In this document: positions 3,688-46,225 of the stretch, in pieces
Numbering within the stretch: the first letter of the stretch is position 1
Layout of the letters: every line of letters starts with the position of its first letter
Source: Chloroflexota bacterium
GTDB lineage: Bacteria; Chloroflexota; UBA6077; SHYK01
Reading direction: 5' to 3'
Length of the DNA stretch: 46,225 bases
Assembly (NCBI GenBank): GCA_035652535.1
Contig: DASRDP010000023.1
Location: 1 to 46,225, forward strand
The notes under the pieces: generated by a model
The model's input: the letters and a program-made list of their open reading frames with translations, nothing else
The model's database searches: none
What the model was told of the DNA's origin: nothing
Program-made: the position numbers and the translations under genes

Positions 3688-5136
3688 TCAGAGGCCGGAG
3701 GCCCCCACTGGCGTCGGGGCGGTGTGGCCGTTATGGCGCGAGCCGGCCGCCCCGAGGTGGATACCGTAGCGGTCCCAGTTCTGATCGACACGGCTCATGA
3801 CTTCCGCGTCGGGGAGGCAAACCGCCGGATAGCTCTTCGCGTTGTAGCGGGTCGCGTCGATGATCATCTTCGACGTGCGCGCCGGCCCCGCCTGCTCCTC
3901 CGGGGGCATCGAGGGGTCCAGGAAGATTCCGGTAACGTCCTTGATGATCTCGACGTCCCGGTGGGCCTGAACGCGCGTTGCAATCGCCCACTCCACGGCC
4001 ACCGGGTCGAAGGGATCCACGTCGTCGTCGACGACGGTTACGAGCTTGATGTGTCGGCCGGGCGGGCAACCCAGGGCCGCCATGCCGATCATCTTCCCGT
4101 AGCCCTCGTAGAGCTTCTCCACCGAAATCACCAGGTGGAGCACTCCGCACCCGCCCTCGGTCAGGTGGACGGCTTTGATCCCGGGGAGCGGGATCGTGCG
4201 GATGAACTCTGCCTCTTTCCCGATGGCCGTCAGCACGTCCGTCTCGTGCGGTGGCGCGCCCTGATAGGCCTGATGGAGGATCGGCCGGTTCCTAAAGGTC
4301 ATCGCGGTGATGTGGATGGTGGTGCGCGGCATGCGGAGCCCGCCGTAATGCCCGGTGAACTCGCCGAAGTGCCCCTCCTCGCGCTTCTCGTTGGGTCGGA
4401 CCTCTCCCTCCAGGACGATCTCCGAGTGCGCCGGTACCTCGATGGGCACGGTCTTGCAGCGGACGACCTCGATCGGCGCGCCCCGCAGCGCGCCGGCCAT
4501 CGCCAGCTCGTCCGTCCCGAAGGGCAACGGCGTCGCCGCCGCCATTGTCACGCGAGGGTCGGGCCCGATGGCGATGGCCACTGGGAAGGGCTCGTCGGGC
4601 GCGCGACGGTGCTGGAGCGAGATGTGCTGGTAGGGACCGGCCAGAATACCCAGCGTATTCCGGTCGTGGACCTGGTTCCGGTAGATCCCGACGTTGCGCG
4701 CGCCGGTCGTTGGATCGAATGTGTGGTGACACGAGAGAGTCAGATATCGCCCGCCGTCCTGCGAGTTCCAGAGGGCGGCGGGCAACTTCAGGATGTCGAC
4801 TTCGTCGCCGACGAGGACGTTTTCCTGGCACGGCGCACGGTCGACGAGGACCGGCGGGACGAGATTTTCCGCGCAGCGATTCCACTCTCGCTGGCACTCG
4901 TTCGGCGCGCATCCCATGGCGAGGGCGTAGCGCCGCCGGGTGGCCAGGAGGTTCGTGAGCATGGGGATGTCGCTCCCGCCCGGGTGCTCAAAGAGCAGGG
5001 CGGGCCCGTACGCGCGAAGGCTCTTGACGCAGACCGCGCCCAGCTCCTGGTCGAGGTCCACCGGCACGGGTATGTGCGCCAGCTCCCCCTCGCTCTCCAG
5101 CAGGTCGAGGAACTCACGGAGACCGGAATAGTGCAT
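3688..5136 (-). CDS. UbiD family (de)carboxylase, type A copy 1
   Basis: A 482-residue prenyl-FMN-dependent UbiD-family enzyme, normal length for the family. Residues matching the known cofactor, metal and catalytic set are all present: N148 and R153 (NVGIYR), H171 (GPYQH), E210 (GTDELAMAG), and the E-x4-E pair E254/E259 (EGHFGE). These enzymes add or remove CO2 on aromatic or alpha,beta-unsaturated acids. ATG 5136 has a strong AGGAGGAAAATCC ribosome site. It is the last gene of a minus-strand operon, behind a zinc-ribbon protein and a type B UbiD. Its nearest relative in the window is 41659-43086. The substrate cannot be read from sequence. Confidence 0.92.
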   Translation of the reverse strand: MHYSGLREFLDLLESEGELAHIPVPVDLDQELGAVCVKSLRAYGPALLFEHPGGSDIPMLTNLLATRRRYALAMGCAPNECQREWNRCAENLVPPVLVDRAPCQENVLVGDEVDILKLPAALWNSQDGGRYLTLSCHHTFDPTTGARNVGIYRNQVHDRNTLGILAGPYQHISLQHRRAPDEPFPVAIAIGPDPRVTMAAATPLPFGTDELAMAGALRGAPIEVVRCKTVPIEVPAHSEIVLEGEVRPNEKREEGHFGEFTGHYGGLRMPRTTIHITAMTFRNRPILHQAYQGAPPHETDVLTAIGKEAEFIRTIPLPGIKAVHLTEGGCGVLHLVISVEKLYEGYGKMIGMAALGCPPGRHIKLVTVVDDDVDPFDPVAVEWAIATRVQAHRDVEIIKDVTGIFLDPSMPPEEQAGPARTSKMIIDATRYNAKSYPAVCLPDAEVMSRVDQNWDRYGIHLGAAGSRHNGHTAPTPVGASGL

Positions 5137-5172: not shown

Positions 5173-5370
5173 CTAGCGGCCGGACGGGGACGGGTCGGCG
5201 CTCAGTCTCCCGGTCGGCTCTCCTTCGCGCCTTTGGGCTGCCACTCCGACGGTGAACTCATGGTGGCAGAAGGGGCAGTGGCAGTAGGCGTCCGGGATTC
5301 GAAAGAACTCCACGCCCACCATGAACTGTTCGCGGCACTTCGGGCATGGGACGTAGGCAAAGTCTGCCAA
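5173..5370 (-). CDS. Small zinc-ribbon protein between two UbiD genes
   Basis: A 65-residue protein read from TTG 5370, with GGAG six bases upstream. The stop of the preceding UbiD gene is eight bases away, so translation is probably coupled. It carries CPKC near residue 10 and CHCPFCHHEF about 22 residues later, a four- to five-Cys zinc ribbon. The C-terminal tail is polar. Known non-oxidative hydroxyarylic acid decarboxylases have a small zinc-ribbon-like D subunit encoded next to the UbiD-type C subunit. This protein has the right size, place and Cys pattern to play that part, though its sequence is not obviously the same family. No equivalent is seen in the second UbiD pair. Confidence 0.7.
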   Translation of the reverse strand: MADFAYVPCPKCREQFMVGVEFFRIPDAYCHCPFCHHEFTVGVAAQRREGEPTGRLSADPSPSGR

Positions 5371-5378
5371 ATCGGCTC

Positions 5379-6824
5379 CTATCCCCAGGGCTCGACGGGA
5401 ATTCGCTCGAGGCGGTCCTGGCCGATGATCTCGAATGGGTCGATCCGGTCCATCACGTCTTGCGGGATGGAGAGGCGCTCGGCGAATGGCTTTCCCAGCG
5501 GCTTCGTGCAGTCGAACCCGACCTTGCACGTCGTGAATCCGTCCTCGGAGCTTGGATCCAGGGGCGAACCAGTGATGCCGTTCACGACCACGAGGCCGCG
5601 GTCGGCTTGAAAGCGCGTGGCGAGGGCTAGGAGCACCTCTTTCTCATCGAAGATGTCGACGTCCTCATCGAAGACGAAGGCGTGCTTGTTGGCGAAATAC
5701 GCGTTGAGCGCAGCCAGGGCCGCGACCTTTCCCTGCCCCTCGATGGTCTTACGAATCTGGACGTAGACGTGCTGCACGCCGGCTCCAGACATCGGGACGT
5801 GGACCGCGCGGACCGTTGGCACGGCCTGCTGGACGGCGCGGTGAATCTCGCCTTCCTTGCCGAGGCTGCTGATCCAGTGCGTGTGGCCGACCATGACGTC
5901 GTCCCAGTACGCGTCCCGGCGCCGGGTGATGGCGGTCACCTTCAAGAACGGACACCAGCGCTGGGGCCCGACGTACCGCGTGTACTCCCCGAACGGACCT
6001 TCGGGCTTGCGCTGCCCTCGAGGCATGTAGCCTTCGATCACGATCTCCGCGTCCGCGGGTACGAGGAAATCCTGGCCAAGGGTTTCGGACGGCACGAGGC
6101 GGAGGGGTGATCCGAGCGTGCCGCCGGCCGCCTCGTAGTGACTCTCCTCGACGCCAACCCGCGTCGCCGCGCCCAGCAGGGCGAGCGGATGGTGGCCGAC
6201 CCAGTACGCGGCGGGCATGTCCTCGCCCGCCTCCTCGTACTCGCGCAGGTTCTTCGCGTTGTGGGTGCTGGGACCGAGGAACACGCGGATCTCGTCGCGG
6301 TCGGCGAGCCAGCCGCGTTGCATCGCCGAGTTGTCGCGCCGCGTCTGGCGATTGAAGGTGAGGAACAGCCCCTGGGTGACGTAGCGGCCCGGGTCCATCC
6401 GGTGGTGGCGGAGCGCCGGCAGCTCGCGGACATCCACGGCGCCCCCAGTCGCGACGATTTGCTTCACAGGCGCCTCCTCCCGCGAGACGACCACGGGTGG
6501 GACGCGGTGCTGGAGACGCCGATAACAGGCGATCCCCGCCTCGCGAACGCCGACGCCGAAGGCGCGCGCGAGGCGCAGCCGGCTGGCCATCATGAAGGAA
6601 ACCACGGGAAGCTCCAGCTCCCGGCCGTTCGCGACCAAGCGATGGCAGATGAGAATGGGGAAGCGCTTCTCCCTCTCCAGTCGCGTCGCGAGCGCAGTCA
6701 GCTCCCACTCCACGTCGACGGGGCGCTCAATATGGACGACCTCGTCGGGATAGTCGCGCTCGTACCATTCGAGGAAACCGTGGAGCTCGACCGCCTCCGG
6801 TGGAGCGGCGACGACGCTACGCAT
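5379..6824 (-). CDS. UbiD family (de)carboxylase, type B copy 1
   Basis: A 481-residue UbiD-family enzyme, distinct from type A in its N-terminal half (FLEWYERDYPDEVVHIERP). The cofactor and catalytic residues are kept: N165 and R170 (NSAMQR), H188 (GPSTH) and EGPFGEYTRY for the E-x4-E pair. An ESHYEAAGG segment probably supplies the metal-binding Glu. I chose ATG 6824, which overlaps the last eight bases of the upstream cupin, because homology to 43090-44529 begins there; a longer in-frame reading to 6914 is shadow sequence from the cupin gene. The enzyme is followed by the zinc-ribbon protein and type A UbiD, so a multi-subunit complex or a two-step pathway is likely. Confidence 0.92.
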   Translation of the reverse strand: MRSVVAAPPEAVELHGFLEWYERDYPDEVVHIERPVDVEWELTALATRLEREKRFPILICHRLVANGRELELPVVSFMMASRLRLARAFGVGVREAGIACYRRLQHRVPPVVVSREEAPVKQIVATGGAVDVRELPALRHHRMDPGRYVTQGLFLTFNRQTRRDNSAMQRGWLADRDEIRVFLGPSTHNAKNLREYEEAGEDMPAAYWVGHHPLALLGAATRVGVEESHYEAAGGTLGSPLRLVPSETLGQDFLVPADAEIVIEGYMPRGQRKPEGPFGEYTRYVGPQRWCPFLKVTAITRRRDAYWDDVMVGHTHWISSLGKEGEIHRAVQQAVPTVRAVHVPMSGAGVQHVYVQIRKTIEGQGKVAALAALNAYFANKHAFVFDEDVDIFDEKEVLLALATRFQADRGLVVVNGITGSPLDPSSEDGFTTCKVGFDCTKPLGKPFAERLSIPQDVMDRIDPFEIIGQDRLERIPVEPWG

Positions 6825-7365
6825 CGTGGTCCCCGAAGTCTGGCGCGTCCTCGATCTGCTCCAGCTCCGCACCACGATCGACGCCGAGCAGGTCGACCAG
6901 GTTGAGGTCGGCACAGATAAAGATGGCCGGCTCGCGCCGGTCGGCGTTCACGTGCTGAACCACCACCCCGTCCGTACGAATGGGGATGTTCACCACGTCC
7001 TCCGCTTCCCAATCGTGGCGTACGCCGTCGAGGAGCGTATACCCGCGCCCCTGGATGATGTACATGACGGCTCCGCCCGGCGTGCGCTGCGCGCCGGTCC
7101 GCCCGCCCGGGGGGATCTCCTGTTGGAAGAAGAGCATCGACCGGATGCACGCGTCGTCGAGGGCGGGATGGAGGTACCACTTCATCTTGCCCTGGCGGTT
7201 GCGCTCCCAGTTGAGGTCTTTCCCTTTGATGAGCCACGAAGCCTTCTTTTGCTGGGCCCGCTGCTTGTCTCGCAGAGCGTACAGCCAGTCGAGCAGGTTG
7301 TCCTCGCGCGTCGCGGGCTTCATGCCCAGCGGCTCATTGGGCGAGCGACGAGGCCGCTCCGTCAT
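6817..7365 (-). CDS. Cupin-domain protein with altered metal site
   Basis: A 182-residue single-domain cupin. The barrel is clear from AVMYIIQGRGYTLLDG, RHDWEAEDVVNIP and VVVQHVNAD. The two related cupins in this window have H-x-H in the first motif (GKHRHQGG and GRHKHQGG); here the same place reads GRTGAQRTPGG, so two expected metal ligands are missing, while the second-motif His is kept. The N-terminus is long, charged and helical (ALRDKQRAQQKK). ATG 7365 has GGAGGAAAAGTGAG upstream. It lies between a binding protein and UbiD type B, overlapping the latter by eight bases. It may be a structural or sensing partner of the decarboxylases, or bind metal in another way. Confidence 0.85.
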   Translation of the reverse strand: MTERPRRSPNEPLGMKPATREDNLLDWLYALRDKQRAQQKKASWLIKGKDLNWERNRQGKMKWYLHPALDDACIRSMLFFQQEIPPGGRTGAQRTPGGAVMYIIQGRGYTLLDGVRHDWEAEDVVNIPIRTDGVVVQHVNADRREPAIFICADLNLVDLLGVDRGAELEQIEDAPDFGDHDA

Positions 7366-8524: not shown

Positions 8525-8593
8525 GAGATGAATCTCCTTCTGGCTCGATGAAGCGCATTGTACTGTGGCGACGCGACCCGCGCGAGAGTGCGA

Positions 8594-8625
8594 TTGTTAG
8601 GACCGCGGTCGCGACCGGGTATACT
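8594..8625 (+). promoter_or_regulatory. Candidate promoter/operator for the orphan TPP gene
   Basis: A TATACT -10-like box at 8620-8625 lies 39 bases before the TTG start. Upstream are TTGTTA (8594-8599, 20-base spacer) and TTAGGA (8597-8602, 17-base spacer) as possible -35 boxes. The spacer holds two overlapping palindromes, GACCGCGGTC (8601-8610) and GGTCGCGACC (8608-8617), which could bind a repressor. The region also separates the divergent binding-protein operon. Confidence 0.35.
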
Positions 8626-8664
8626 GGCGTCGGCCGCAACCAGCACGGGATGGGAGAGGGCTGC

Positions 8665-9276
8665 TTGGATCGGTACGATTGTCTGAAGCTGCTCGCCGAC
8701 CGGCTCATCGACGATCAAATGCTCGTCGTGACGAGCCTCTCGACGAACACGAGCGTCTTCGCATCCCTCCGAAAGAGCGGCCCGGGCTTCTACGGGCTGA
8801 ATATGGGGCTGTGCACCGGCTTCGCCGTCGGCGTGAGCCTTGCCTTCCCCAAGCGCAAGGTGATCGCCCTGGACTCTGATGGCAGCATGATGGAGGACAC
8901 CAGCGTCCTCATCACCATCGGCGACGTCAACCCGAAGAACCTCGTCGTGATCGTCTTCGACAACCAAGCGTACGCGCGGATGGGCCCGACCGCCACCGCG
9001 CGCAACGCGAACCTCGCACAGATGGCGCAGGGCGCGGGCATCGAGACGACCCGCACCGTCCGCACCATCGGAGAATTCGAGGAGGCCGTGACGGCGGCGC
9101 TCAAAGGCGACGGCCCGAGCTTCCTCGTCGCGAAGGTGGAGGCAGAAACGACGCGCGCCCGGGCCACGAACCCGCGCCGGACGTACGGCCGCGCGATGCG
9201 CGAGGCCTTTATCGACGAGATCATGAAGTTTCCGGACTATCGCGGGCCGGGCGCGGCGGCCGCCCCGTCCGACTGA
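8665..9276 (+). CDS. TPP-binding enzyme, C-terminal subunit (sulfopyruvate/phosphonopyruvate decarboxylase beta-like), orphan
   Basis: A 203-residue thiamine pyrophosphate-binding domain. The TPP/Mg motif is visible as LDSDGSMMEDTS followed about 24 residues later by FDNQAYARMG. I chose TTG 8665 because GGGAGAGG lies just upstream and because the reading from there (DRYDCLKLLADRL) aligns with the paralogue at 36584 (NRFECLPLLAEML). Two-subunit enzymes of this type need an N-terminal PYR-domain partner that provides the catalytic Glu; none is next to this gene, while the other copy has one. It may borrow the 36075 subunit or a distant one. It is convergent with the permease gene, 15 bases away. 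Confidence 0.85.
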   Translation: MDRYDCLKLLADRLIDDQMLVVTSLSTNTSVFASLRKSGPGFYGLNMGLCTGFAVGVSLAFPKRKVIALDSDGSMMEDTSVLITIGDVNPKNLVVIVFDNQAYARMGPTATARNANLAQMAQGAGIETTRTVRTIGEFEEAVTAALKGDGPSFLVAKVEAETTRARATNPRRTYGRAMREAFIDEIMKFPDYRGPGAAAAPSD

Positions 9277-13804: not shown

Positions 13805-16228
13805 ATGGCAGTGACCGACGGCGCCATGGGGGGGCCGGAAGCCCTGCCGATCGCGCAGCCCCGCTACGTGGGGAAGGACGTCCCCCGCGTGGAAGACCCG
13901 CTCCTGCTGACTGGGCGCGCGGAGTACGGAGACAACGTCCGCCTACCGGGGATGCTGCACGCGGCGATCCTCCGGAGTCCCCACGCCCACGCCCGCATCG
14001 TTCGAATCGACGCCTCGCGCGCCGCCGCGCTGCCCGGCGTCGCGGCGATCCTCACCGGTGAAGAGGTGAAGGCCTGGTCGCAGCCGGTCTTCGGCGTTCC
14101 CGAGGGGTGGACGGGCTACGCCCTGGCCACGGAGAAGGTGCACTGGGTGGGCGAACCGGTGGCGATGGTCGCGGCGACGGACCGCTACATCGCTGAGGAC
14201 GCGCTCGAGCTCATCGACGTGGAGTACGAGCCGCTCGATCCGGTCGTCGACCCCGAGCGCGCCATCGCCGGTCCCCCCTTCGTGCTGGAGGGGAAGGAGA
14301 GCAACGTTGCCTATCAGCGCCACTTCGAGTTCGGCGACGTCGCGAAGGCCTTCGGCGAGGCGGACCTGATCGTCGAGGAGCGGTTTCGCTGGAACCGGAC
14401 CAGCGGCAATCCCATAGAGACGTGCGTCTGCATCGCCGATTGGGACCCGTATTCGAACATGCTGACGGTTCGGGGGAGCCATCGCTCCCCGCACCTCATC
14501 CTCCCCGCGCTCGTTACGTCCCTCGGAATGCCGTCGAACCAGATCCGCATCGTCCAGTCGCCGCTGGGCGGCAGCTTCGGCGTGAAGACCTTCGCGCGGT
14601 ACATCGTGCTGGTGTGCCTCATGGCCAAGAAGCTGGGCGGTCGGCCGGTGAAGTGGACGGAGGACCGGCTGGAGCACCTGATCGGGAACAGCAGCCACGC
14701 CTGGGACCGGCGCCACGAATGCGCCCTCGCGGTGAAGCGCGATGGGACGATCACCGGTTTTCGCATGCGCATGGTCGACGACTTCGGCGCCTTTGCGGAG
14801 TGGCTCGGCGTCGGCATGGTGCTGAAACCGATGATCTCCTTCAGCGGCTGCTACAAGATCCCCTGCTTCGACTACGAGTGCGTGGCCGTCCTCACGAACA
14901 AGGTGCCGCAGGGCCCGTATCGGGGCTTCGGGCTCCCGTCCCACTACTGGATCCTGGAGCAGCTCATCGACATCGCGGCCGCGCGCCTCGGCATTGATCC
15001 CGTCGAGATGCGGCGTCGCAACTTCGTGCCGATGGACGAGTTCCCCTACACGCTTCCCTCCGGCAACGTCTACGACAGCGGCAACTACGCCGGCAGCCTC
15101 GATCTGCTCCTCGAGAAGTCCGGTCACGCGGAGCTCCGGCGCGAGGTAGAGGCTGCCCGGGCCGAGGGTCGGCTCGTCGGCCTCAGCGTGGTCTCCAGTA
15201 TCGAGCCCGGCCTGACCGGCCCGCCCATGCTGGTGCACCTCTCGCCGCGGATCTTCACGCGCACGGCCTCGCCCGAGGGGGTGCTCATCCGCATGGACGC
15301 CTTCGGGAAGGTGATCGTCGAGGTCGGGTTTCCGTGGGGCGGGCAGAGCCAGCACTCCTTCGTGCGCCAGATCGTCGCCGACTACTTCAACCTCACCCCG
15401 GGAGACGTCCAGGTCGTCACGGTCGATAGCCTCGTGATGCAGCCGGGCACTGGCCCGATCTCCAGCTCGGTGGCCATCGCCCTCAGCGGCGCCGTCATGG
15501 GCGGGCTCGTGCGACTGACGGACAAGCTGAAGCAGGGCGCGGCGGTCATGCTCGAGGTGCACGCCGACGACCTCGAGCTGTTCGACGGCCAGCTCCGCGT
15601 GAAGGGCGCGCCAGACCGGGGCGTGCCCGTGGCGCGGGTGGCCGGGTTCATGCTGATGCGGCCAGACCTCCTGCCGGAAGGAGTCGACGGGAGCGCAGAG
15701 GCGACGTACGTCTGGAACCCGCCGGACCGGGCGCTCCCCGACGAGCAAGGACGCGGCACGTACAGCGTGACGGCCGCCGGCGCCCTCCACCTGTGCATGG
15801 TGGAGGTGGACCGGGACACCGGCCAGGTCAGGATCCTGAAGTACGTGATGGTGGATGACTGCGGGACGCGCCTCAACCCCAGCGTCGTGTCGGGCATGCT
15901 CCAGGGCGGACTGGCCCACGGCATCGGGAACGCGCTTCTGGAAGAGTACGTGTACGACGAGAACGGCCAGATCCTGACGTCGACGTACATGGACTACCTG
16001 CTCCCCACCATCCACGAAGTACCGATGGCGGAGGAGTACCCGATGGTGACACCCTCGCCCATCACCGCGCTTGGGGTGAAGGGGATCGGCGAGGCGGCGA
16101 TCCACACCACGCCGGCGGCCGTCCTCTGCGCGATCAACGACGCGCTGAGCCCGCTCGGCGTGCGAATCACAGAGGCGCCCGCGACGCCGCTGCGGGTATG
16201 GCGGGCCATTCAGGGGGCGTCGACGTGA
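13805..16228 (+). CDS. Molybdopterin-binding large subunit of molybdenum hydroxylase (CoxL-like, non-CODH) 1
   Basis: An 807-residue large subunit of the xanthine oxidase family that binds the molybdenum cofactor and hydroxylates its substrate. The conserved active-site Glu appears in GIGEAA near the C-terminus. The loop that marks form I CO dehydrogenases (AYxCSFR) reads PYRGFG here, so this is a ring or aldehyde hydroxylase rather than a CO dehydrogenase. The cytosine form of the cofactor is usual in this branch but cannot be seen. The start ATG 13805 follows the CoxS stop by four bases and has GAGG nearby. Its stop overlaps the following cupin as GTGA. It is closest to the orphan CoxL at 38431-40860. 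Confidence 0.93.
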   Translation: MAVTDGAMGGPEALPIAQPRYVGKDVPRVEDPLLLTGRAEYGDNVRLPGMLHAAILRSPHAHARIVRIDASRAAALPGVAAILTGEEVKAWSQPVFGVPEGWTGYALATEKVHWVGEPVAMVAATDRYIAEDALELIDVEYEPLDPVVDPERAIAGPPFVLEGKESNVAYQRHFEFGDVAKAFGEADLIVEERFRWNRTSGNPIETCVCIADWDPYSNMLTVRGSHRSPHLILPALVTSLGMPSNQIRIVQSPLGGSFGVKTFARYIVLVCLMAKKLGGRPVKWTEDRLEHLIGNSSHAWDRRHECALAVKRDGTITGFRMRMVDDFGAFAEWLGVGMVLKPMISFSGCYKIPCFDYECVAVLTNKVPQGPYRGFGLPSHYWILEQLIDIAAARLGIDPVEMRRRNFVPMDEFPYTLPSGNVYDSGNYAGSLDLLLEKSGHAELRREVEAARAEGRLVGLSVVSSIEPGLTGPPMLVHLSPRIFTRTASPEGVLIRMDAFGKVIVEVGFPWGGQSQHSFVRQIVADYFNLTPGDVQVVTVDSLVMQPGTGPISSSVAIALSGAVMGGLVRLTDKLKQGAAVMLEVHADDLELFDGQLRVKGAPDRGVPVARVAGFMLMRPDLLPEGVDGSAEATYVWNPPDRALPDEQGRGTYSVTAAGALHLCMVEVDRDTGQVRILKYVMVDDCGTRLNPSVVSGMLQGGLAHGIGNALLEEYVYDENGQILTSTYMDYLLPTIHEVPMAEEYPMVTPSPITALGVKGIGEAAIHTTPAAVLCAINDALSPLGVRITEAPATPLRVWRAIQGAST

Positions 16229-16749
16229 TCGAGCGCGAGCGCGAGCGGGTCCGTCAGCGCGAGTATTACGACCAGCTCATCACCGACCTCCGGGAGGAGC
16301 GGGAGCGATCGTACAGCGGCAAGGTGGTGGTCCGCGCCAAGGAAGAGCCGTGGGTCATGACTCGTCAGGCGCTCGTCAAGTACTTCCTCTGGCCCTCTCG
16401 GCACTCGGACCAGCCGCCGCAGACCGCCCTCGACGACTGGATCGTGTTCGTTCAGGACATCAAGCAGCACTCCGGGAAGCATCGCCACCAGGGCGGGCTC
16501 GTCATCTACATCCTCGAGGGCGAAGGGTATTCCGTCGTCGAAGGCGAGCGCCACGACTGGGAGGCCGGCGACCTGCTGCTTTTGCCCATGAAGCCCGGCG
16601 GGGTCGAGCACCAGCACTTCAACAAGGACGACGCCAGGCCCGCCAAGTGGATCGCCTTCATCTGTCCGACCATCTTCTCCTGGGGAGGGAGCGAGATGGT
16701 CCAGATGGAGCTGCACCCAGAGTTCCAGGAGCGATCAGACCGGGGGTGA
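16225..16749 (+). CDS. Cupin-domain protein in molybdenum hydroxylase operon
   Basis: A 174-residue single-domain cupin. Start at GTG 16225 in a GTGA overlap with CoxL; homology to the cupin at 41123-41662 begins exactly there (IERERERVRQREYYDQL against ISRERERERERDDYQQL). The N-terminal 35 residues are highly charged and helical. The metal site looks complete: HRHQGG, an acidic LEGEG, and GVEHQHFNKDD. RHDWEAGD is shared by all three cupins of the window. Cupins of this kind occur as dioxygenases, isomerases or ligand sensors; the context points to the same pathway as the hydroxylase, but no reaction can be assigned. Confidence 0.88.
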   Translation: MIERERERVRQREYYDQLITDLREERERSYSGKVVVRAKEEPWVMTRQALVKYFLWPSRHSDQPPQTALDDWIVFVQDIKQHSGKHRHQGGLVIYILEGEGYSVVEGERHDWEAGDLLLLPMKPGGVEHQHFNKDDARPAKWIAFICPTIFSWGGSEMVQMELHPEFQERSDRG

Positions 16750-32176: not shown

Positions 32177-34546
32177 ATGCAGGGCCGAGCGCGTCCGGAG
32201 ACCACGTCCGTCCCGGGTCGCCTGGCGCGAAAATACGCGCTCGTCCTGGGGTTGCTAGTCAGCGGCGCCCTCATCGTGAGCGGCATCGTCCAGGGGTACT
32301 TCGCGGTGACCGAGAGCCAGAATGCCCTCGCCCGGATCCAGCGGACCGAAGCGCGGGCGGCGGCGTCGCGGATCGCCGATTTTCTCGATGGCGTCGAGCG
32401 TGAGGTCGGCTCTGTGGCGCGGAGCGCGCGCCCGAGCGGCGAGGCGGGCGCCGAACAGCGGCGGCTCGACTACCTGCGGCTTCTGCGCCTCGAGCCCGCC
32501 ATCGCGGAGCTGACGTACGTCGATGGGACCGGGCGGGAACAACTCAGCGTCTCGCTTGCGGCGGCGACGATTATTGGAAGCGGCGAGGATCGATCGGCGG
32601 ATCCCATTTTCACAGCGGTGAGTGGGCACACCTACTGGGGCCCTGTGTACTTTCGACGCGGATCGGAGCCCTTTATGACGGTGGCGATGCGCGAGGCGGG
32701 GCCGAATCCGGGCGTGACCGCGGCGGAGGTGAACCTGAAGCTCACGTGGGACCTCGTCTCGCAGATCAGCGTGGGGAAGGCGGGGTATGCCTACGTGGCC
32801 GACGACGACGGGGCGCTGATCGCTCATCCGGACCTCAGCCTCGTCCTTCGGCACACCGATGTGTCGCACCTGGCTCCGGTACAGCAGGCGAATGGCTGGA
32901 CCGGCGGGCCGCAGCTCATCACGATGGGTCCGGACCTCGAGGGCCGCGACGTGCTTTCCGTGGCGGAGGTGATTCGACCAACGGGGTGGCTGGTCGTCGT
33001 CAACGAGCCGGTGGGGGAGGCGCTCGCCCCGCTCTACGCGGTGGTGTGGCGGACCACGGTTCTCGTTCTCCTCGGCATCGCCCTTTCGCTGCTCGCCAGC
33101 GTCCTGCTGGCGCGACGCATGGTCGCGCCGATCCACGTCCTGCAGCGGGGCGCTGCCGACATCGGAGCCGGGAGGCTCGACCAGCGCATCGAGGTTCGAA
33201 CGGGCGATGAGCTCGAGGCGCTGGCCGAATCGTTCAACCAGATGAGCGCGCAGCTCAAGGCCTCCTACGCCGATCTCGAACAGAAGGTCGAGGACCGCAC
33301 CCGAGCCCTGGCGGACGCAGTGCAGGCGCTGGAAGAGAAAGGACGCCAGCTCGAGATCGCGAGCCACCACAAGACGGAGTTTCTCGCCAACATGTCGCAC
33401 GAGCTGCGGACGCCCCTGAACGCCATCATCGGGTTCGCCGAGGTGCTCTCCGATCGACCGTCCCCGGGGCGTGACGAGCGCGAGCAGCGCTATCTGACGA
33501 ATATCCTGGTGGCCGGGCGCCACTTGCTGTCCCTCATCAACGAGATTCTGGACCTCGCGAAGGTGGAGGCGGGCCGGATGGACCTCGAGCTGCGCCGATT
33601 CCCGTTGGCGCAAGCGATCGAGAATAGCTTCATCTGGATTCAGGAGCGCGCCGCGCGCCACCGCATCACGGTGACGCTCGACCTGGACCCGACCGTCGGA
33701 ATGGTCGAGGCCGACGAGCGGAAGATCAAGCAGGTCCTGGTGAACCTGATGTCGAATGCGGTGAAGTACACGCCAGATGACGGACGCGTCGACGTGCGCG
33801 TTCGAAAGATGGGCGACGACGTCCACGTGTCGGTCCGCGACACCGGTGTTGGGATCAGCGCCGAGGACCGCGAGCGGATTTTCGCCGCGTTCGAGCAGGT
33901 GAAGAGTGATGGCTTTCCCCGGACGGAGGGGACCGGCCTCGGACTGGCGCTCTGCCGCCGACTGGTAGAGCTACACGGCGGCCGAATCTGGGTCGAGAGC
34001 GCGCCGGGGGCGGGAAGCACCTTTACGTTCGCCATCCCGCTGCGTCAGGCGCTGGCTGAGCCCACCGGGTCCTCCGTTCCGGAGGCGCGTGACATCCTGC
34101 CACGCCCAGTCGACGAGTGGGACCGTCCCTCGCCGCCGCGCGAGCCAACGGGAAGCGTCGGCGAGAAGCGGCCTACGCTGCTCGTGATCGATAACCACCC
34201 GATGGCGATCGAGGTCGTCGATGCTGTGCTGGCCCCCGAGGGGTATCGCGTGGTCCCGGCGCTCGGCGGACGTGAGGGAATCGAGATGGCTCGTCGCGAG
34301 CTGCCGGGGCTGATCATTCTGGACCTGATCATGCCGGATGTCGACGGGTACGCCGTCCTGCGTCTGCTTCGCGCGGATCCGGCCACGGCGTCCATCCCCA
34401 TCATTGTTCTCACGTCGAAGACGCTGTCCGCGGAGGAGCGGAGCGCCCTCTCGACCCAGGTCACCTCCATTGGCCAGAAAGGTGACTTCGACCGCCAGGC
34501 CTTCGTCGAGCTGGTCCGTCGCACCATTCGCGTCGTTTCCGCCTGA
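32177..34546 (+). CDS. Hybrid histidine kinase (Cache-HAMP-HisKA-HATPase-REC)
   Basis: A 789-residue membrane sensor. Domains in order: TM1 (about 16-38), an extracellular Cache-like domain (about 40-285, with VYFRRGSEPFMTVAMRE and GYAYVADDDGALIAHP), TM2 (about 288-312), HAMP (about 313-365), a short coiled coil, HisKA with phospho-acceptor H408 (NMSHELRTPLNAI), HATPase with NLMSNAVKYT, DTGVGIS and TEGTGLGLAL, and a C-terminal receiver with D716 (ILDLIMPDVDG). The receiver's usual acidic pair reads VIDNHP, so one acidic residue is Asn. The start directly follows the XRE stop. UbiD type C begins 37 bases after the end, suggesting that the sensed compound is its substrate. Confidence 0.93.
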   Translation: MQGRARPETTSVPGRLARKYALVLGLLVSGALIVSGIVQGYFAVTESQNALARIQRTEARAAASRIADFLDGVEREVGSVARSARPSGEAGAEQRRLDYLRLLRLEPAIAELTYVDGTGREQLSVSLAAATIIGSGEDRSADPIFTAVSGHTYWGPVYFRRGSEPFMTVAMREAGPNPGVTAAEVNLKLTWDLVSQISVGKAGYAYVADDDGALIAHPDLSLVLRHTDVSHLAPVQQANGWTGGPQLITMGPDLEGRDVLSVAEVIRPTGWLVVVNEPVGEALAPLYAVVWRTTVLVLLGIALSLLASVLLARRMVAPIHVLQRGAADIGAGRLDQRIEVRTGDELEALAESFNQMSAQLKASYADLEQKVEDRTRALADAVQALEEKGRQLEIASHHKTEFLANMSHELRTPLNAIIGFAEVLSDRPSPGRDEREQRYLTNILVAGRHLLSLINEILDLAKVEAGRMDLELRRFPLAQAIENSFIWIQERAARHRITVTLDLDPTVGMVEADERKIKQVLVNLMSNAVKYTPDDGRVDVRVRKMGDDVHVSVRDTGVGISAEDRERIFAAFEQVKSDGFPRTEGTGLGLALCRRLVELHGGRIWVESAPGAGSTFTFAIPLRQALAEPTGSSVPEARDILPRPVDEWDRPSPPREPTGSVGEKRPTLLVIDNHPMAIEVVDAVLAPEGYRVVPALGGREGIEMARRELPGLIILDLIMPDVDGYAVLRLLRADPATASIPIIVLTSKTLSAEERSALSTQVTSIGQKGDFDRQAFVELVRRTIRVVSA

Positions 34547-34583
34547 CCCTCAGGCGATATCATTGGCGCGCTGGGAGGGAAGA

Positions 34584-36062
34584 ATGACTGACGTTGCTGC
34601 GCGCGATCTGCTGGGAACGGAATTGCGCGAAGTGATCCGCTCCTTCGAGGCCATGGGGGAGTTGCGGCACGTGGATGAGGCCGACCCGCACCTCGAGCTG
34701 GGCGCGATCACGGAGATGATGGCCCTCCGGGAGGGGCCTGCATTGCTGTTCGATCACCTCCCCGGCTACGCACCGGGCTACCGGGTGCTGTCCAATTTGT
34801 TGAATTGTCCCCGGCGAGTCGCGGCCCTCTTCGGGCACCCCAGCGATGTCGGCGGCATCGCGCTCGTCCGGGCGATTCGCGAGCGCTTCTCGAGTCTCCA
34901 GCTCATCGACCCGGTCACGGTGTCGCGGGCCGATTTTGCCGAGGAGACCGAGCGGGGCGACGACGTGAATCTGCTCAAATTCCCCGCGCCCTTCTGGCAC
35001 GAGCACGACGGCGGCCGCTACATCGGAACGGGCTGCTCCGTCATCATGCGGGACCCCGTCGATGGGTGGGTGAACCTGGGAACCTATCGCGTGCAGGTGC
35101 ACGACGAGCGGACGCTGGGTCTCATGGTCGAGCCGGCCCATCAGGGATCCCTCATCATGCGCCGCCATTGGGAATCTGGCCATGATTGCCCCGTGGTGCT
35201 CTGTATCGGGACGGAGCCGGCGGTCCTCATGGGCTCGTTCCTGGCGATGCCGTGGGGCATGAGCGAGTACGGCTGGGCCGGCGCCGTCGTTGGCCGGCCG
35301 ATCGAGGTTGTCGAAGGCGAGGTGACCGGGCTGCCGATCCCGGCCTCCGCCGAGCTGGTGATCGAGGGGTACGTTCCGCCGCCGTCGGTCGAGACGCGGA
35401 TCGAAGGCCCGTTTGGCGAGACGATTGGCTACTACGGCAGCGGCGCCAGCGAGCAGGCGGTTATCCGCGTGCAGCAGGTGCAGCACCGGCGCGACCCGAT
35501 CATCGTGGGCACGCCTCCGCTGCGGCCGCCAGCGTCCAGCAACGCCTCCTATCTCTTCCGCGCGGCGAACCTGTGGACGGAGATCGAGCGGGCCGGCGTG
35601 CCGGACGTGCAGGGCGTGTGGATGCACCCGGCGGGCAGCTCCTCGTTTCTCGCCATCATCTCGGTGCGCCAGCGTTACAGCGGCCACGTCAAGAATGTGG
35701 CCCAGGCGGCCATGGGCGGCCGCGCGGGCGGCGCGCAGCTCGGGCGATTCGTCATCGTCGTGGACGACGACATCGACCCGTCCGACATCAACCAGGTGCT
35801 GTGGGCTGTGTCGACGCGGTGCGATCCGGAGACGAGTATCGACGTGATTCGAAACTGCGCCTCCAACCACCTCGACCCGCGCCTCACGCCGGAGAAACGC
35901 GCGAGCGGCGACTTCTCGGCGGCCCGGGCGGTCATCGACGCCTGCCGGCCGTACCACTGGCGCGATCGATTTCCGCGGTCCGTGGGCACGAGTCCCGAGT
36001 ATCAGGAGCAAATCCTGCACGACTGGCCGGACCTGTTCCAGACCGGCCCACAGACTCACTGA
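34584..36062 (+). CDS. UbiD family (de)carboxylase, type C
   Basis: A 492-residue UbiD-family enzyme, distinct from types A and B. Conserved residues: N164 and R169 (NLGTYR), H186 (EPAHQG, one position shifted compared with the other types), the metal Glu in MSEYGWAG and the E-x4-E pair in EGPFGETIGYYG. ATG 34584 has GGGAGGGA upstream; the longer frame that overlaps the kinase is shadow. It is followed after 12 bases by a two-subunit TPP enzyme. Pairing of a prFMN decarboxylase with a 2-oxo-acid decarboxylase-like enzyme suggests two successive C-C bond steps on one substrate. Confidence 0.92.
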   Translation: MTDVAARDLLGTELREVIRSFEAMGELRHVDEADPHLELGAITEMMALREGPALLFDHLPGYAPGYRVLSNLLNCPRRVAALFGHPSDVGGIALVRAIRERFSSLQLIDPVTVSRADFAEETERGDDVNLLKFPAPFWHEHDGGRYIGTGCSVIMRDPVDGWVNLGTYRVQVHDERTLGLMVEPAHQGSLIMRRHWESGHDCPVVLCIGTEPAVLMGSFLAMPWGMSEYGWAGAVVGRPIEVVEGEVTGLPIPASAELVIEGYVPPPSVETRIEGPFGETIGYYGSGASEQAVIRVQQVQHRRDPIIVGTPPLRPPASSNASYLFRAANLWTEIERAGVPDVQGVWMHPAGSSSFLAIISVRQRYSGHVKNVAQAAMGGRAGGAQLGRFVIVVDDDIDPSDINQVLWAVSTRCDPETSIDVIRNCASNHLDPRLTPEKRASGDFSAARAVIDACRPYHWRDRFPRSVGTSPEYQEQILHDWPDLFQTGPQTH

Positions 36063-36074
36063 CGGGAGCGATGG

Positions 36075-36587
36075 GTGGACAAAGAATCGACGCGCATTGT
36101 GGTTGACGGCTTGAAGGAGGCGGGGATCGATCTGGTCGTCACCCTACCAGAGGAGCCGACCCACTCGGTGATCGACGAGACGCGGGTCGATCCGTATTTC
36201 ACGACCGTGACCGTGACGGCGGAGGGCCACGGGCTGGCGCTCTGCGCGGGCGCCGCGCTCGGCGGGCGCGACTGCGTGTTCTTCACCGGCGTCGCCGGGC
36301 TCCTGGTGGGCACGTGGGCGCTGGCGCAGGTCGGCATGGTCTACGGCGCCCCCTTCACGATCATCGCCTCCTATCGCGGCGACTTCTCGGATCGGACCGG
36401 CATTCCCGGGTCCCAGCTCCTCATGTTTCGCCAGGTGCTGGAGCCGCAGCTCAACATGCTGCGCATCCCGTACGAGATCATCAACGACCCGGCGAAGCTC
36501 AAGCGCTCGATCAAGGGGGCGTCCGTCGCATGCCGGGAATACGGAACGCCCATCGCGCTCCTCCTGACCGGCGATTTCCTATCGTGA
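36075..36587 (+). CDS. TPP-binding enzyme N-terminal (PYR) subunit, sulfopyruvate decarboxylase alpha-like
   Basis: A 170-residue PYR-domain subunit. The catalytic Glu that activates TPP is seen in VTAEGHGLALCAG (about residue 50). GVAGLLVGTWALAQ and PFTIIASYRGDFSD match the ComD-type subunit of sulfopyruvate and phosphonopyruvate decarboxylases. GTG 36075 has GGGAG six bases upstream. Its stop overlaps the beta subunit start as GTGA. The coenzyme M pathway is not otherwise present, so the substrate is more likely another 2-oxo acid from the UbiD-linked pathway. Confidence 0.88.
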   Translation: MDKESTRIVVDGLKEAGIDLVVTLPEEPTHSVIDETRVDPYFTTVTVTAEGHGLALCAGAALGGRDCVFFTGVAGLLVGTWALAQVGMVYGAPFTIIASYRGDFSDRTGIPGSQLLMFRQVLEPQLNMLRIPYEIINDPAKLKRSIKGASVACREYGTPIALLLTGDFLS

Positions 36588-41122: not shown

Positions 41123-41662
41123 TCATCGGATTGACCCGGTCGCGTTCGCCTGGGGGTCTTGGAAGTCCGGGTGGTTCTCGATCTGCACCATCTCGCTCGA
41201 TCCCCAGGTGAACAGCGGGACGTTGATGAAGGCGATCCATTTCACGGGCTTCGCGTCGTCCTTGTTGAAGTGCTGGTGGTCCACGCCGCCGCGCTTCATG
41301 GGCAGGAGGAGAAGGTCCCCCGCTTCCCAGTCGTGGCGCTCGCCGTCCACCATGGAAAACCCCTCGCCCTCCAGGATGTAGATGACCAGGCCGCCCTGGT
41401 GCTTGTGGCGGCCCGAGTGCTTGAGGATCGTTTGGACGAAGATGGTCCAGCCGTCGAGCGCCGTGTCGACCGGCTCGCCCGTGTACTGGGACGGCCACAT
41501 GTACTTCCGGCGAAGCGCCTGGCGCGTCTGCTTCAGGGGAACGTCCTTCGCCCGAATTACGACTCGTCCTTCGAAAGACCGGTCGCGCTCCGCGCGATGG
41601 TAGTCCAGGAGCTGCTGATAATCGTCGCGCTCGCGCTCCCGTTCTCGCTCTCTCGAGATCAT
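41123..41662 (-). CDS. Cupin-domain protein linked to UbiD pair 2
   Basis: A 179-residue cupin. ATG 41662 overlaps the UbiD type A stop as ATGA, and the protein opens with an Arg/Glu helix (ISRERERERERDDYQQL). Metal ligands are present: GRHKHQGG, LEGEG, then RHDWEAGD and GVDHQHFNKDD. It is closely related to the cupin at 16225-16749 and more distantly to 6817-7365, which has lost the H-x-H. It is the last gene of its operon. Linkage of such cupins to UbiD pairs twice, and to a CoxL operon once, argues that they share a substrate class. Confidence 0.9.
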   Translation of the reverse strand: MISRERERERERDDYQQLLDYHRAERDRSFEGRVVIRAKDVPLKQTRQALRRKYMWPSQYTGEPVDTALDGWTIFVQTILKHSGRHKHQGGLVIYILEGEGFSMVDGERHDWEAGDLLLLPMKRGGVDHQHFNKDDAKPVKWIAFINVPLFTWGSSEMVQIENHPDFQDPQANATGSIR

Positions 41663-43086
41663 GTCGGCTGCCTCCCCCCGTTCGGTAGGCCGTATCGTCC
41701 CCAGTTCTGATCCACCTGCTCCTGCACAGTCGCGCGCGGGATGCACAGGGGAGGATAGCTCTTGGCGTCGTAGCGCGTCGCGTCGATGATGACCTTCGAC
41801 GTTCGGGCGTGCACGCTCTGCTCCGCACGCGGGAGGGAGGGATCGAGGATGATGCCGGTCACCTCGTTGATGATCTCCATGTCCCGATGTGGCTGCACCC
41901 GCGTCGCGACGGCCCACTCGACCGCGCTCGGATCGAAGGGATCGACGTCGTCGTCGACCACGATGACCTGTTTGATGAATCGGCCGGGGTGTGTCCCGAG
42001 GACGGCCATGCCGACGGACTTCCCGTAACCCTCGTACAGCTTCTCGATGGAGACCACGGCGTGGAGCGCCCCGCCGCCAGGGGCCGTCACGTGCACCCGC
42101 TTGATTCCCGGCAGGGCGATCTGCCGCATCAGCTCGGCTTCACGCGGCACGCCGGTGAGGATTGCCGACTCATGGGGCGGGCGTCCCTCGTAGGTCTGCT
42201 GCAGGATCGGCCGATCCCGATGGGTGATGGCCGACACGCGGATCACTTGGCGGGGCTCCGTTGGGCCGCCGTAATAGCCGGTGAACTCCCCGAACGGGCC
42301 TTCGTCCACAAGGAGGTCCGGCGCGATGTGGCCTTCGATGACGATCTCCGCGGAGGCCGGCACTTCGAGGGGTACCGTCACGCAGCGCACGAGGTCGAGG
42401 GGCGCCTCCCGCAGGGCGCCGGCCACCGCCAGCTCGTCGGTGCCGAAGGGGACCGGGGAGGTGGCGGTCATCAGCACGACGGGGTCGGCGCCGATGGCGA
42501 TGGCGACCGGAAACGGCTCGCTGGGCGCCTTGCGACGCTGCAGCATCAGATGCGTGTACGGCGCGGAGAGGAGGCCCAGGAGGTCGCGGTCGTGCACCTG
42601 GTTTCGGTAGACGCCGACGTTCCGCGCGCCGGTCTCCGGGTCTCTGGTGACGTGGCACGAGAGGGTGAGATACGGCCCGCCGTCGAGGTCGTTCCAGATG
42701 GGGGCCGGCAACCGTTTTAGGTCGACGTCGGACCCGACCAGGACGTGCTCCTGGCACGCGCCCCGCTCCACGATTCGAGGAGGGAGGAGCGTCGCGACGC
42801 GCCGGTTCCACTCCGAGGCGAGCCGATCGGGCTCTGTCCCCAGCGCCAGGGCGTACCGAGCTCGGCTGGCGAGCAGGTCCACGGCCAGCGGAATGTCGGA
42901 GCCGCCGGGCCGCTCGAAGAGGAGCCCCGGCCCGTGGTTGAGCAAGTTGCGGTAGCAGATCGCGCCGATCTCCTGATCAAGCGCGACCGGCGCTGAGACC
43001 CGGGCCAGCTCGCCCGCCGCCTCCAGGGCGGCGAGGTAGCTTCGGAGGTCGTGGACTGAGCTTCGGGGACGCGTTTCCACTGCCAC
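41659..43086 (-). CDS. UbiD family (de)carboxylase, type A copy 2
   Basis: A 475-residue UbiD-family enzyme collinear with 3688-5136. Conserved residues are NVGVYR (Asn and Arg), APYTH (His), GTDELAVAG (metal Glu) and EGPFGEFTGYYG (E-x4-E). It starts at GTG 43086, three bases after the type B stop, so the two UbiD genes are translated together. The end overlaps the cupin start. The close match in order with the first cluster indicates an old duplication or a conserved functional pair. No zinc-ribbon gene is present here. Confidence 0.93.
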   Translation of the reverse strand: MAVETRPRSSVHDLRSYLAALEAAGELARVSAPVALDQEIGAICYRNLLNHGPGLLFERPGGSDIPLAVDLLASRARYALALGTEPDRLASEWNRRVATLLPPRIVERGACQEHVLVGSDVDLKRLPAPIWNDLDGGPYLTLSCHVTRDPETGARNVGVYRNQVHDRDLLGLLSAPYTHLMLQRRKAPSEPFPVAIAIGADPVVLMTATSPVPFGTDELAVAGALREAPLDLVRCVTVPLEVPASAEIVIEGHIAPDLLVDEGPFGEFTGYYGGPTEPRQVIRVSAITHRDRPILQQTYEGRPPHESAILTGVPREAELMRQIALPGIKRVHVTAPGGGALHAVVSIEKLYEGYGKSVGMAVLGTHPGRFIKQVIVVDDDVDPFDPSAVEWAVATRVQPHRDMEIINEVTGIILDPSLPRAEQSVHARTSKVIIDATRYDAKSYPPLCIPRATVQEQVDQNWGRYGLPNGGRQPT

Positions 43087-43089
43087 CTG

Positions 43090-44529
43090 CTACCCCCAGG
43101 GCTCCGCCGGGATACGCGCCAGGCGATCACGCCCGAGGATCGCGACCGGGTCCATTCGGCCCAGCACGTCGGCGGGCACGGCGAGGCGCTCGGCGAAGGG
43201 TCTGTCCAGCGGTTTCGTGCAGTCGAACCCGATTTTCGCCGAGGTTCGCCCGTCCTCGGAGCTGGGATCGAGGGGACCGCCGGTCAAGCCGCTGAGCTGA
43301 ACCATGCCGCGGTCGGCCTGGAATCGCATGGCCAGCGCCAGGAGAACCTCCTTTTCGTCGAACACGTCGACGTCGTCATCGAACACGAAGGCGTGCTTCA
43401 TGCTCCCCTGCGTGTTGAGCGCGGCAAGCGCCGCCACTTTGCCTTGCCCCTCGATGGTCTTGCGGATCTGTACGTACGCGTGGGCCACGCCGGCCCCGGA
43501 CATGGGAACGTGCACGGCGCGCACGGTGGGCACGGCGCGCTGGATCGCCTGGAAGATCTCGCCCTCTTTGGCCAGGCTGCTGATCCAGTGGGTGTGGCCG
43601 ACCATCACGTCGCTCCAGAACGCGTCGCGGCGCCGGGTAACCGCCGTGACCTTCAGAAACGGGCCCCAGCGTTGGGGCCCGATGTAGCGGGTGTATTCTC
43701 CGAACGGGCCTTCCGGCTTGCGCTGGCCCGCGGGCACGTATCCCTCGATGACGACCTCGACATCCGCGGGGACGAGGAAGTCGTCGCCAAGGGTCTCCGA
43801 TGGAACGAGCCGCAGGGGCTCGCCGGCCAGACCACCGGCCGCCGCGAAGTGGCTGTCCTCCGGCCCGATGTGGCTGGCCGCGCCGAGGACCACCAGCGGA
43901 TGGTGGCCGATCCAGAACGCCGCGGGCATGTCCTCACCGGCGTCCTCGTACTGACGCAGATTATGGGCGTTGTGGGTCTGGGGTCCCATCCAGACGCGGA
44001 TCTCGTCGCGGCCCGCCAGCCAGCCGCGGTGCAGCGCCGAGTTGTCGAGGCCCGTGGAGCGATGTCTCGTCAGGAACAGCCCCTCCGTGATATAGCGGCC
44101 CGGGTCTGTCCGGTGGTGGCGCGGCGCCGGGAAGCGCCGCACGTCGACGGCCGAGCCGGTCTCCACGATCTGCTTCACGGGCGCCTCCGCGCGCGGGACC
44201 ACGATCGGCGGCCGACGCCGCTGAACGCGCTCGAAGCAGACGCGGCCGGCCTCCGGCACGCCGGAGCCCAGGAGCCGTGCGAGCCGGAGCCTGCTGGCCA
44301 TCATGAAGGTCACGAGCGGGATGTCGAGGGGCAGGCCGTCGACGCGAATGTCGTGGAAGATGAGCACCGGAAAGCGCTTGTCGCGCTCGAGCTTCGCCGC
44401 GAGCGCCGTCAGCTCCCACGTCGCGTCCATCGGTCGCTCCACGTGAACGACCTCGTCGGGATAGTCGCGCTCGTACTGGATCAGGAAGCCGTGGAGATCG
44501 AGGGTGGCGGCGGATGCAGGCGAAACCAT
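43090..44529 (-). CDS. UbiD family (de)carboxylase, type B copy 2
   Basis: A 479-residue UbiD-family enzyme collinear with 5379-6824 (FLIQYERDYPDEVVHVERP against FLEWYERDYPDEVVHIERP). NSALHR, GPQTH and EGPFGEYTRY supply the conserved Asn, Arg, His and E-x4-E residues; EDSHFAAAGG corresponds to the metal-Glu segment. ATG 44529 has GGGAGGA close upstream; the frame to 44589 is not needed. It is the first gene of the operon, and its control region, shared with the kinase gene, contains a strong palindrome. Confidence 0.93.
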   Translation of the reverse strand: MVSPASAATLDLHGFLIQYERDYPDEVVHVERPMDATWELTALAAKLERDKRFPVLIFHDIRVDGLPLDIPLVTFMMASRLRLARLLGSGVPEAGRVCFERVQRRRPPIVVPRAEAPVKQIVETGSAVDVRRFPAPRHHRTDPGRYITEGLFLTRHRSTGLDNSALHRGWLAGRDEIRVWMGPQTHNAHNLRQYEDAGEDMPAAFWIGHHPLVVLGAASHIGPEDSHFAAAGGLAGEPLRLVPSETLGDDFLVPADVEVVIEGYVPAGQRKPEGPFGEYTRYIGPQRWGPFLKVTAVTRRRDAFWSDVMVGHTHWISSLAKEGEIFQAIQRAVPTVRAVHVPMSGAGVAHAYVQIRKTIEGQGKVAALAALNTQGSMKHAFVFDDDVDVFDEKEVLLALAMRFQADRGMVQLSGLTGGPLDPSSEDGRTSAKIGFDCTKPLDRPFAERLAVPADVLGRMDPVAILGRDRLARIPAEPWG

Positions 44530-44659
44530 GCTCCTCCCGACAAGCCGACGCGGGTTTGGACGGCCGTCGCACGCGGGCAAGCATACCATCCCGCGCTCGA
44601 GGGGTCACGGGCGCTTCAGCGCGCGCCGACATGAATCGTGCAACCTGGAGCGCCGACGT

Positions 44660-44693
44660 GTGTTGTACGTGCGCTCCACCGCACGTACACTAC
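44660..44693 (+). promoter_or_regulatory. Palindromic operator overlapping a promoter-like sequence
   Basis: TGTACGTGCG (44664-44673) and CGCACGTACA (44680-44689) form a perfect 10-base inverted repeat with a 6-base loop; outer bases extend it to 44660-44693 with one mismatch and one G-T pair. The same stretch reads as TTGTAC (44663-44668), 17 bases, TACACT (44686-44691), a plausible weak promoter for the kinase gene, whose ATG is 65 bases on. The UbiD operon diverges from the same 226-base region. Confidence 0.5.
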
Positions 44694-44755
44694 GCGCTGT
44701 TGTCCGGAGTCGGGGCGCCGGCGAGCCACGTCCGGATCAACGCTGGAGGCTTGGA

Positions 44756-46225
44756 TGCCGAGCGAGCGAATCCAGCGCCAGATCGATCGCCTTCTTGATG
44801 AGGCGGACGACGCGGTGCGCCGCGATGACTGGGCCACCGTACTGCAGCGAGCCCAGGCGGCGCTGCGCCTCGATCCCGAGAACGAAGACGCCCTCACGTA
44901 TCTGGCCGCTGCCTCTCGCAGCGCCAATCCGATTGGCGCGGCAGAAGACGGGGCGGGAGAAGCAGCGTCGGCAGTTTTCGCTCCCGCCCCGGAGCCGACC
45001 TCGTTTTGCAACGGCCGCTACCGGGTCAAGGAATTCCTGGGTGAGGGCGGGAAGAAGCGGGTCTATCTCGCGACTGATACGCTGCTGGATCGGGATGTGG
45101 CCTTCGCCCTCATCAAGACCGATGGGTTGGACGAGGTGGGCCGCGAGCGCGTCCGGCGCGAGGCCCAGGCCATGGGTCGGCTCGGCGCGCATCCGCACGT
45201 CGTCTCGGTGTTCGATCTGGGGGAGGAGGGTGGCCAGCCCTTCATCGTCACCGAGCTGATGGAAGGGGGTGACGTCGAAGGACTGATCGAGCGGGCCGAG
45301 AGCCACCGGGTGTCCCTTCAAGATGCGATTCGGATCGCCGATGAGGTGTGCGAGGGGCTGGAGTTCGCCCACGGGAAGAACGTCGTGCATCGGGACCTGA
45401 AGCCCGGGAACGTGTGGCTGACGGCGGAGGGGACGGCGAAGCTGGGGGATTTTGGGCTGGCGGTGTCGCTGGACCGGACCCGGCTGACGCAGGCTGGGAT
45501 GATGGTGGGGACGGTGAGCTACATGCCGCCGGAGCAGGCGACCGGGGGCGAGGTGACCCCGCGCTCGGACCTGTACTCGCTGGGGGCGATGCTGTACGAG
45601 CTGGTGACGGGCCGGCCGCCCTTTGTGGGGGATGAGAGTGTGGCGATCATCACCCAGCACCTGAACACGCCGCCGGTGGCGCCGAGCTGGCACGTGCCGG
45701 ACCTGCCGGTGGGGTTGGAGGCGCTGATCCTGCGATTGCTGGAGAAGGACCCGGGGAAGCGGCCGGCCAGCGCCGGGGAGGTCCGGGCGATGCTGGCTGG
45801 GGCGCGGGCCGCGGCGAAGGGCGAGGGGACCGCGACCCGCGGGGAGGGATCGGTCGAGCGTGGGAGTCGCGCCCTTGACGATCCGCTCTACCGGGAGGCG
45901 TTCGTGGGGCGGGAGGCGGAGCTGAAGCAGCTTCGAGCGGCGTTTGACGGGGCGATGTCGGGGCAGGGGTCGCTGGCGGCGGTGGTGGGGGAGCCGGGGA
46001 TTGGGAAGACGGCGTTGTGCGAGCAGCTTGCCACCTACGTGTCGATCCGGGGTGGGAAGACGCTGGTCGGGCATTGCTATGAGGAGGGCTCGCTCTCCCT
46101 GCCGTATCTACCGTTCGTGGAATCGCTCCGGTCCTACGTGCTGGCGCGGGACCCGGAGGGGTTGAAGGGCGACCTGGGGTCGGGGGCGGCCGAGGTGGCG
46201 CGGATCGTGAGCGAGGTGCGGGACC
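44756..46225 (+). CDS. Serine/threonine protein kinase fused to AAA-type ATPase (partial)
   Basis: The first 490 codons of a large regulator that runs off the right edge. ATG 44756 has GGAGG five bases upstream. Residues 1-60 form a helical, TPR-like N-terminus. The kinase domain (about 85-345) shows LGEGGKKRVYLATD, the Lys in FALIK, HRDLKPGN (about 211) and GDFGLA (about 231), so it should be active. After a linker, FVGREAELKQL (about 383) and VGEPGIGKTALC (about 411-422) begin an ATPase module like those of LuxR- or cyclase-type signalling ATPases. The C-terminal output is outside the window. I recall this kinase-ATPase architecture from Chloroflexota. Codon use is very G-rich. Confidence 0.92.

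Follow-up and report, generated by a model that had tools for sequence, protein, structure and literature searches.

Two distinct UbiD subfamilies, here called A and B, lie twice in the same order within the window, which is one entire contig of 46,225 bp from a 4.45-Mb draft genome (G000), and the B members belong to a clade in which a histidine stands at the position of a manganese-binding glutamate. This His-ligand clade is the new part, two-UbiD enzymes being already known. The reading that we prefer, and to which we give about an even chance, is a catabolic cassette in which a VdcCD-like unit of B with a small zinc-ribbon protein (ZnR) and a canonical A, co-inherited yet separable, would serve one (hetero)aromatic acid pathway. 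The genes concerned are as follows.

5379..6824, minus strand: B1, B-type UbiD whose Mn-ligand position is occupied by His
5173..5370, minus strand: ZnR, 65-aa two-CxxC zinc-ribbon protein between B1 and A1, beginning with TTG 8 bp beyond the B1 stop
3688..5136, minus strand: A1, A-type UbiD with a canonical site, 36 bp after ZnR
6817..7365, minus strand: cupin1, single-domain cupin of the same family as cupin2, without H-x-H, with an 8-nt overlap with the B1 start
43090..44529, minus strand: B2, B-type UbiD in which His (residue 227) replaces the Mn-ligand Glu, with no adjoining zinc ribbon
41659..43086, minus strand: A2, A-type UbiD with a canonical N/R/H/E/E/E site, 3 bp after B2
41123..41662, minus strand: cupin2, ~179-aa single-domain cupin with a gentisate-dioxygenase-like H-x-H, its start overlapping the A2 stop by 4 nt
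16198-16749: cupin3, third cupin of the window, same family, H-x-H present

All four UbiD open reading frames are intact, full-length and on the minus strand, with B upstream of A in both pairs; identities are 73% between B1 and B2, 63% between A1 and A2, and 32–34% between A and B. A1 and B2 show the Pfam PF20695-PF01977-PF20696 architecture, A2 and B1 were placed in the family by a PF01977 genome search together with the TIGR00148 cutoff, and the UbiD tree placed A and B in different halves, each well supported (trees of 77, then 126 UbiDs). The claim of an earlier note on this DNA, that two distinct UbiD subfamilies occur twice in the same order, is thus borne out by reading frames, domain and subfamily models, identities and tree. 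Its description of both pairs as tightly coupled holds for pair 2, with its 3-bp gap, but not for pair 1, where a 242-bp gap between B1 and A1 is filled by the ZnR gene, which was absent from that reading of the window. The PF01977 search returned 35 UbiD-domain matches in the 4.45-Mb genome, five of them inside the window. The fifth window UbiD (34338-36062, plus strand) has a reading frame whose start overlaps an upstream histidine kinase gene, the true start lying further in. Immediately after it comes a sulfopyruvate-decarboxylase-alpha-like TPP subunit (36075-36587, plus strand), and the matching beta-like subunit lies 27 kb from the alpha-like one (8548-9276, plus strand). Divergent from B2, a serine/threonine protein kinase with an AAA domain (44638-46224, plus strand) runs off the contig end. 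Candidates for a UbiX-type flavoprotein were found on other contigs of the genome, one beside a UbiD on C128, and none within the window.

The residue that sets B apart is a metal ligand. In Fdc1, E233 binds Mn2+ (PMC4947166), and we compared the ligand set Asn-His-Glu (Fdc1 N168, H191 and E233), which is common in the UbiD family and is not a curated membership rule. A1 and A2 carry the whole set, and in B1 and B2 Glu is changed to His. The Glu is found 44 residues before E-x4-E in E. coli UbiD (E241), HmfF and A, with His in B at the same place. This exchange was present in 20/20 B-superclade rows of the first set, whereas no UbiD outside the superclade showed it there; with His found again in six additional, distant B proteins, the total comes to 26 from 12 genomes, and a conserved S-H-[YFW] context surrounds the His of the B superclade. 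The Mn-ligand position, where A has Glu and B has His, had been missing from the key-residue check of the earlier note, although it was right that all four UbiDs retain N-x4-R, His and E-x4-E. Its further view that neither partner looks dead survives in part, since the catalytic R and E-x4-E (E-R-E) are present in A1, A2, B1 and B2 but the metal site of B is altered. Judged from this alignment, the His of B may itself bind metal, and the B branch probably holds the prFMN-phosphate metal by Asn-His-His, not Asn-His-Glu. A literature search that left most subscription journals outside its reach yielded no paper on the His substitution or on a B-ZnR-A cassette, and we treat the novelty of both as a lead, not a finding.

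A second property of the B side is its zinc-ribbon neighbour. A ZnR-like gene immediately followed 16 of the 27 B-side UbiDs (B1 and 15 others) and 0/77 other UbiDs (Fisher P-value about 5e-12, uncorrected for relatedness and, because clade and residue were examined on the same sequences, descriptive like the other P-values). At one locus (L122) B and the zinc ribbon share a single reading frame, the ribbon forming a natural C-terminal fusion. No ZnR stands beside B2 or beside the B subgroup of L001, L003 and L006. Several B-side UbiDs with a zinc-ribbon gene nearby have changed key residues (L125 4741-6249, L126 4877-6349, L127 16546-18009 and L046 7299-8732, as well as L058, L063, L064 and L065), with the patterns N-T-H-E-H-D or D/N-K-H-D-x-E; these proteins possibly perform other chemistry or are non-catalytic.

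The closest parallel to this arrangement is the vanillate (hydroxyarylate) decarboxylase VdcC/VdcD (ShVdcCD, PDB 7AE4), which, like B-ZnR, combines a UbiD with a separately encoded two-CxxC zinc ribbon, there placed near the catalytic loops. VdcC hexamers bear six zinc-ribbon VdcD subunits close to the catalytic E-R-E loops (PMC8379154), and VdcC alone is inactive (PMC10865409). The window system differs from VdcCD in the His at the Mn ligand of B and in the second UbiD encoded alongside, and the zinc-ribbon partner gene is found beside B1, not B2. By sequence, A is nearer to VdcC than B is (336 vs 205 bits on the VdcC model), and an assignment as VdcC was rejected for all four UbiDs, which score 203–336 bits on NF041204 against a cutoff of 650. 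Searches of NCBIfam and PDB gave no significant sequence match of ZnR to VdcD or any family, so the likeness of ZnR to VdcD is confined to architecture and gene position. The association of ZnR with B, the one fusion and the likeness to VdcCD nevertheless point to a B:zinc-ribbon complex. B and the small ZnR subunit would then form a VdcCD-like decarboxylase in which ZnR steadies the active-site loops of B, and B2 would either need no zinc ribbon or borrow that of pair 1. Folding of a B-ZnR fusion (L005) and of a read-through B2-A2 fusion from shallow alignments gave low pLDDT values, 35 and 28, respectively.

We surveyed the B-A pair in MAGs, many of them incomplete, from two sampled groups and a scan of close relatives, counting loci rather than independent events; the contig scan reached close relatives only (7 loci), the survey rests on genome searches, and the named relatives carry 'Chloroflexi' and 'Deltaproteobacteria' labels, all being MAGs. 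By our own estimate ~0.1 adjacent UbiD pairs would be expected at random from 35 matches in 4.45 Mb, and the same ordered pair occurs in other genomes, so the pair exceeds chance. Counted from the B side, the tree gave 13 B proteins of the close clade: A adjoins B in 6/13 (the window twice, G401, G526, G534 and G540) and lies about 4.6 kb off in the same cluster for one (G403), two are at a contig edge (both in G400), and four have no A near them (G402, G404, G405 and L122). The order B-ZnR-A was seen at window pair 1, G401, L119, L120 and L121, and by genome in the window, G401, G526, G534 and G540; an apparent 4-bp overlap of ZnR and A at L119 was traced to an over-long ORF start, the real gap being about 20 bp. 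Counted from the A side, a class-wide search returned 13 A-type matches with 12 readable loci, at which two A genes adjoin a His-type B, a further two have one within about 5 kb, one is beside other B-side UbiDs and seven are without B. One or both parts of a split TPP decarboxylase accompany A at seven loci (L102, L104, L140 and L142-L145). The most constant partner is the zinc ribbon for B and the split TPP decarboxylase for A. At the A locus of G017 (L102 6464-6655, minus strand), a 30-aa N-terminal remnant of B runs in frame into the latter half of ZnR, which looks like a deletion scar.

Other UbiD arrangements were met in the same survey. At L123 (917-6154, plus strand) an A-type UbiD, a FAD-binding fumarate-reductase-like protein, a 2Fe-2S protein and a His-type B stand in a row, the redox module sitting between the two UbiDs, and at L056 (5072-8097, plus strand) overlapping UbiDs, one from each family half, lie downstream of a Mo hydroxylase. 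A very large UbiD expansion marks G534 as well as the window genome, with >130 candidates in its 8.3 Mb.

The trees describe an association that is old at its base and loose at its tips. The deep split is the same for A as for B, and the A and B proteins of G526, G534 and G540, about 50% and 53% identical, respectively, to those of the window, form the sister group to the window clade in both tree halves, which argues for an old A-B association. In the genome of the window, B1 and B2 are sisters, whereas A2 groups with the A proteins of G402 and G403, and forcing B2 together with the B proteins of G402 and G403 was rejected (AU P-value = 0.0135). Because B2 stays with B1 while A2 joins the A of other genomes, we infer that the pairs were reassembled; a simple within-genome duplication of the A-B pair is unsupported on the same grounds. 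The conserved adjacency proposed earlier does recur, in G401, G526, G534 and G540, but it is optional: either gene is commonly met without the other, and the recent histories of A and B are in conflict. On these sequences the pairing is best described as recurrent and partly inherited, neither fixed nor strictly co-evolving.

The surroundings of the four genes suggest a catabolic role. A cupin was rightly noted earlier beside each UbiD pair, and B-type genes in several other genomes also have cupins, there of a two-domain kind (L005, L007, L030, L039, L044, L100 and L121). The three window cupins form one ~180-aa single-domain family with a weak likeness to gentisate 1,2-dioxygenase, and the H-x-H metal motif missing in cupin1 is present in the other sampled members of the family. 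Besides the cupins, the neighbouring genes include xanthine-dehydrogenase-type Mo hydroxylases, an FAA hydrolase, a luciferase-like monooxygenase, substrate-binding proteins, ABC genes and the split TPP decarboxylase. In riboflavin catabolism, LumK/LumL is a two-subunit TPP decarboxylase, LumJ a xanthine-oxidase-like enzyme and LumY a cupin (PMC12746152); this combination resembles the surroundings of many A-type UbiDs. The relation is a gene-content analogy only, with no UbiD mentioned in the text consulted of that paper. By this analogy, the neighbour genes suggest aerobic breakdown of (hetero)aromatic acids. A would be a canonical prFMN UbiD and the second decarboxylase of the same pathway as B, the two acting on different steps or on different carboxylates of one (hetero)aromatic acid, and the pathway would also use the molybdenum hydroxylase, cupin proteins, the split TPP decarboxylase and an ABC uptake system. 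A shared pathway for A and B is suggested by these surroundings, the substrates are probably heteroaromatic acids by the same comparison, and the reaction direction and substrate class are guesses from neighbours.

Several competing readings were weighed against this cassette. B, ZnR and A may assemble into a single hetero-oligomeric UbiD (de)carboxylase comparable to phenylphosphate carboxylase, with one UbiD catalytic, the other (perhaps the His-type B) in another role, and ZnR bridging or activating; we regard this as possible, if rather unlikely. It would account for the B-ZnR-A order fixed in five loci of distant genomes, the matching deep splits of A and B, the B-ZnR scar beside A in G017, and the finding that a His-type B has an A-type or other A-half UbiD for its partner, never a second B. 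Two or more UbiD subunits occur in phenylphosphate, phenylphosphoamidate and naphthalene carboxylases, and both UbiD subunits are needed in phenylphosphoamidate carboxylase (PMC7500099, PMC12016498). These enzymes, in which, as in the cassette, at least two different UbiD-like proteins come together (PpcA and PpcB in the phenylphosphate type), supply the precedent for a hetero-oligomer, to be set beside the remark of the earlier note that UbiD enzymes are usually homo-oligomers. An assignment as phenylphosphate carboxylase itself was rejected (78–207 bits vs cutoffs of 565 and 469 for TIGR02723/TIGR02724); its setting is a phenylphosphate synthase, that of A and B a Mo hydroxylase, cupin and ABC uptake, and no HAD delta subunit was seen. 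Against a hetero-oligomer stand A without B in 7/12 readable loci of the A-side count, several genomes with B and without A, and the disagreement of recent A and B histories in the AU test. The hetero-complex idea of the earlier note thus keeps the recurring adjacency, the shared deep split and the scar in its favour, but not as an obligate complex.

A and B might alternatively be independent homo-oligomers that remove two carboxylates of one di- or tri-acid in turn, ZnR serving B only. This, the second option raised in the earlier note, is the specific-substrate form of the cassette explanation, and we consider it unlikely. It agrees with the catalytic residues kept in A and B and with the TPP decarboxylase near A, which would add one more decarboxylation. 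The 2,5-furandicarboxylate decarboxylase HmfF (PDB 6H6V) is moreover the best PDB match and closest solved structure for both A and B, with the UbiD fold and core motifs in common. The relationship is distant, however; HmfF is a single UbiD that, unlike B, has Glu as the Mn ligand, and no di-acid is named by the neighbour genes. We know of no zinc ribbon or UbiD partner of HmfF.

The conserved B-ZnR-A order, which counts against a cassette of separable decarboxylases, also fits a three-subunit enzyme; a three-part UbiD enzyme in which ZnR joins A to an Asn-His-His B of different metal or cofactor state, with chemistry new for UbiDs, seems distinctly improbable to us. Chance or hitch-hiking, by which UbiD-rich genomes (20 to >130 copies) would bring UbiDs together without functional meaning, could draw on the huge expansions and on other tandem UbiDs at L056, L127 and L128, but is very hard to credit given that several genomes repeat this order of the two subfamilies at about 50% identity and that a few tens of UbiDs per genome would rarely abut at random.

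UbiD enzymes form and cleave C-C bonds with CO2, and a practical question for them is what sets the metal and cofactor state. A UbiD branch with His at a metal-ligand position, a recurrent zinc ribbon and one natural fusion would allow a direct test of the roles of ligand and partner, and the B-ZnR-A cassette would offer a new case for judging when UbiDs form hetero-complexes.
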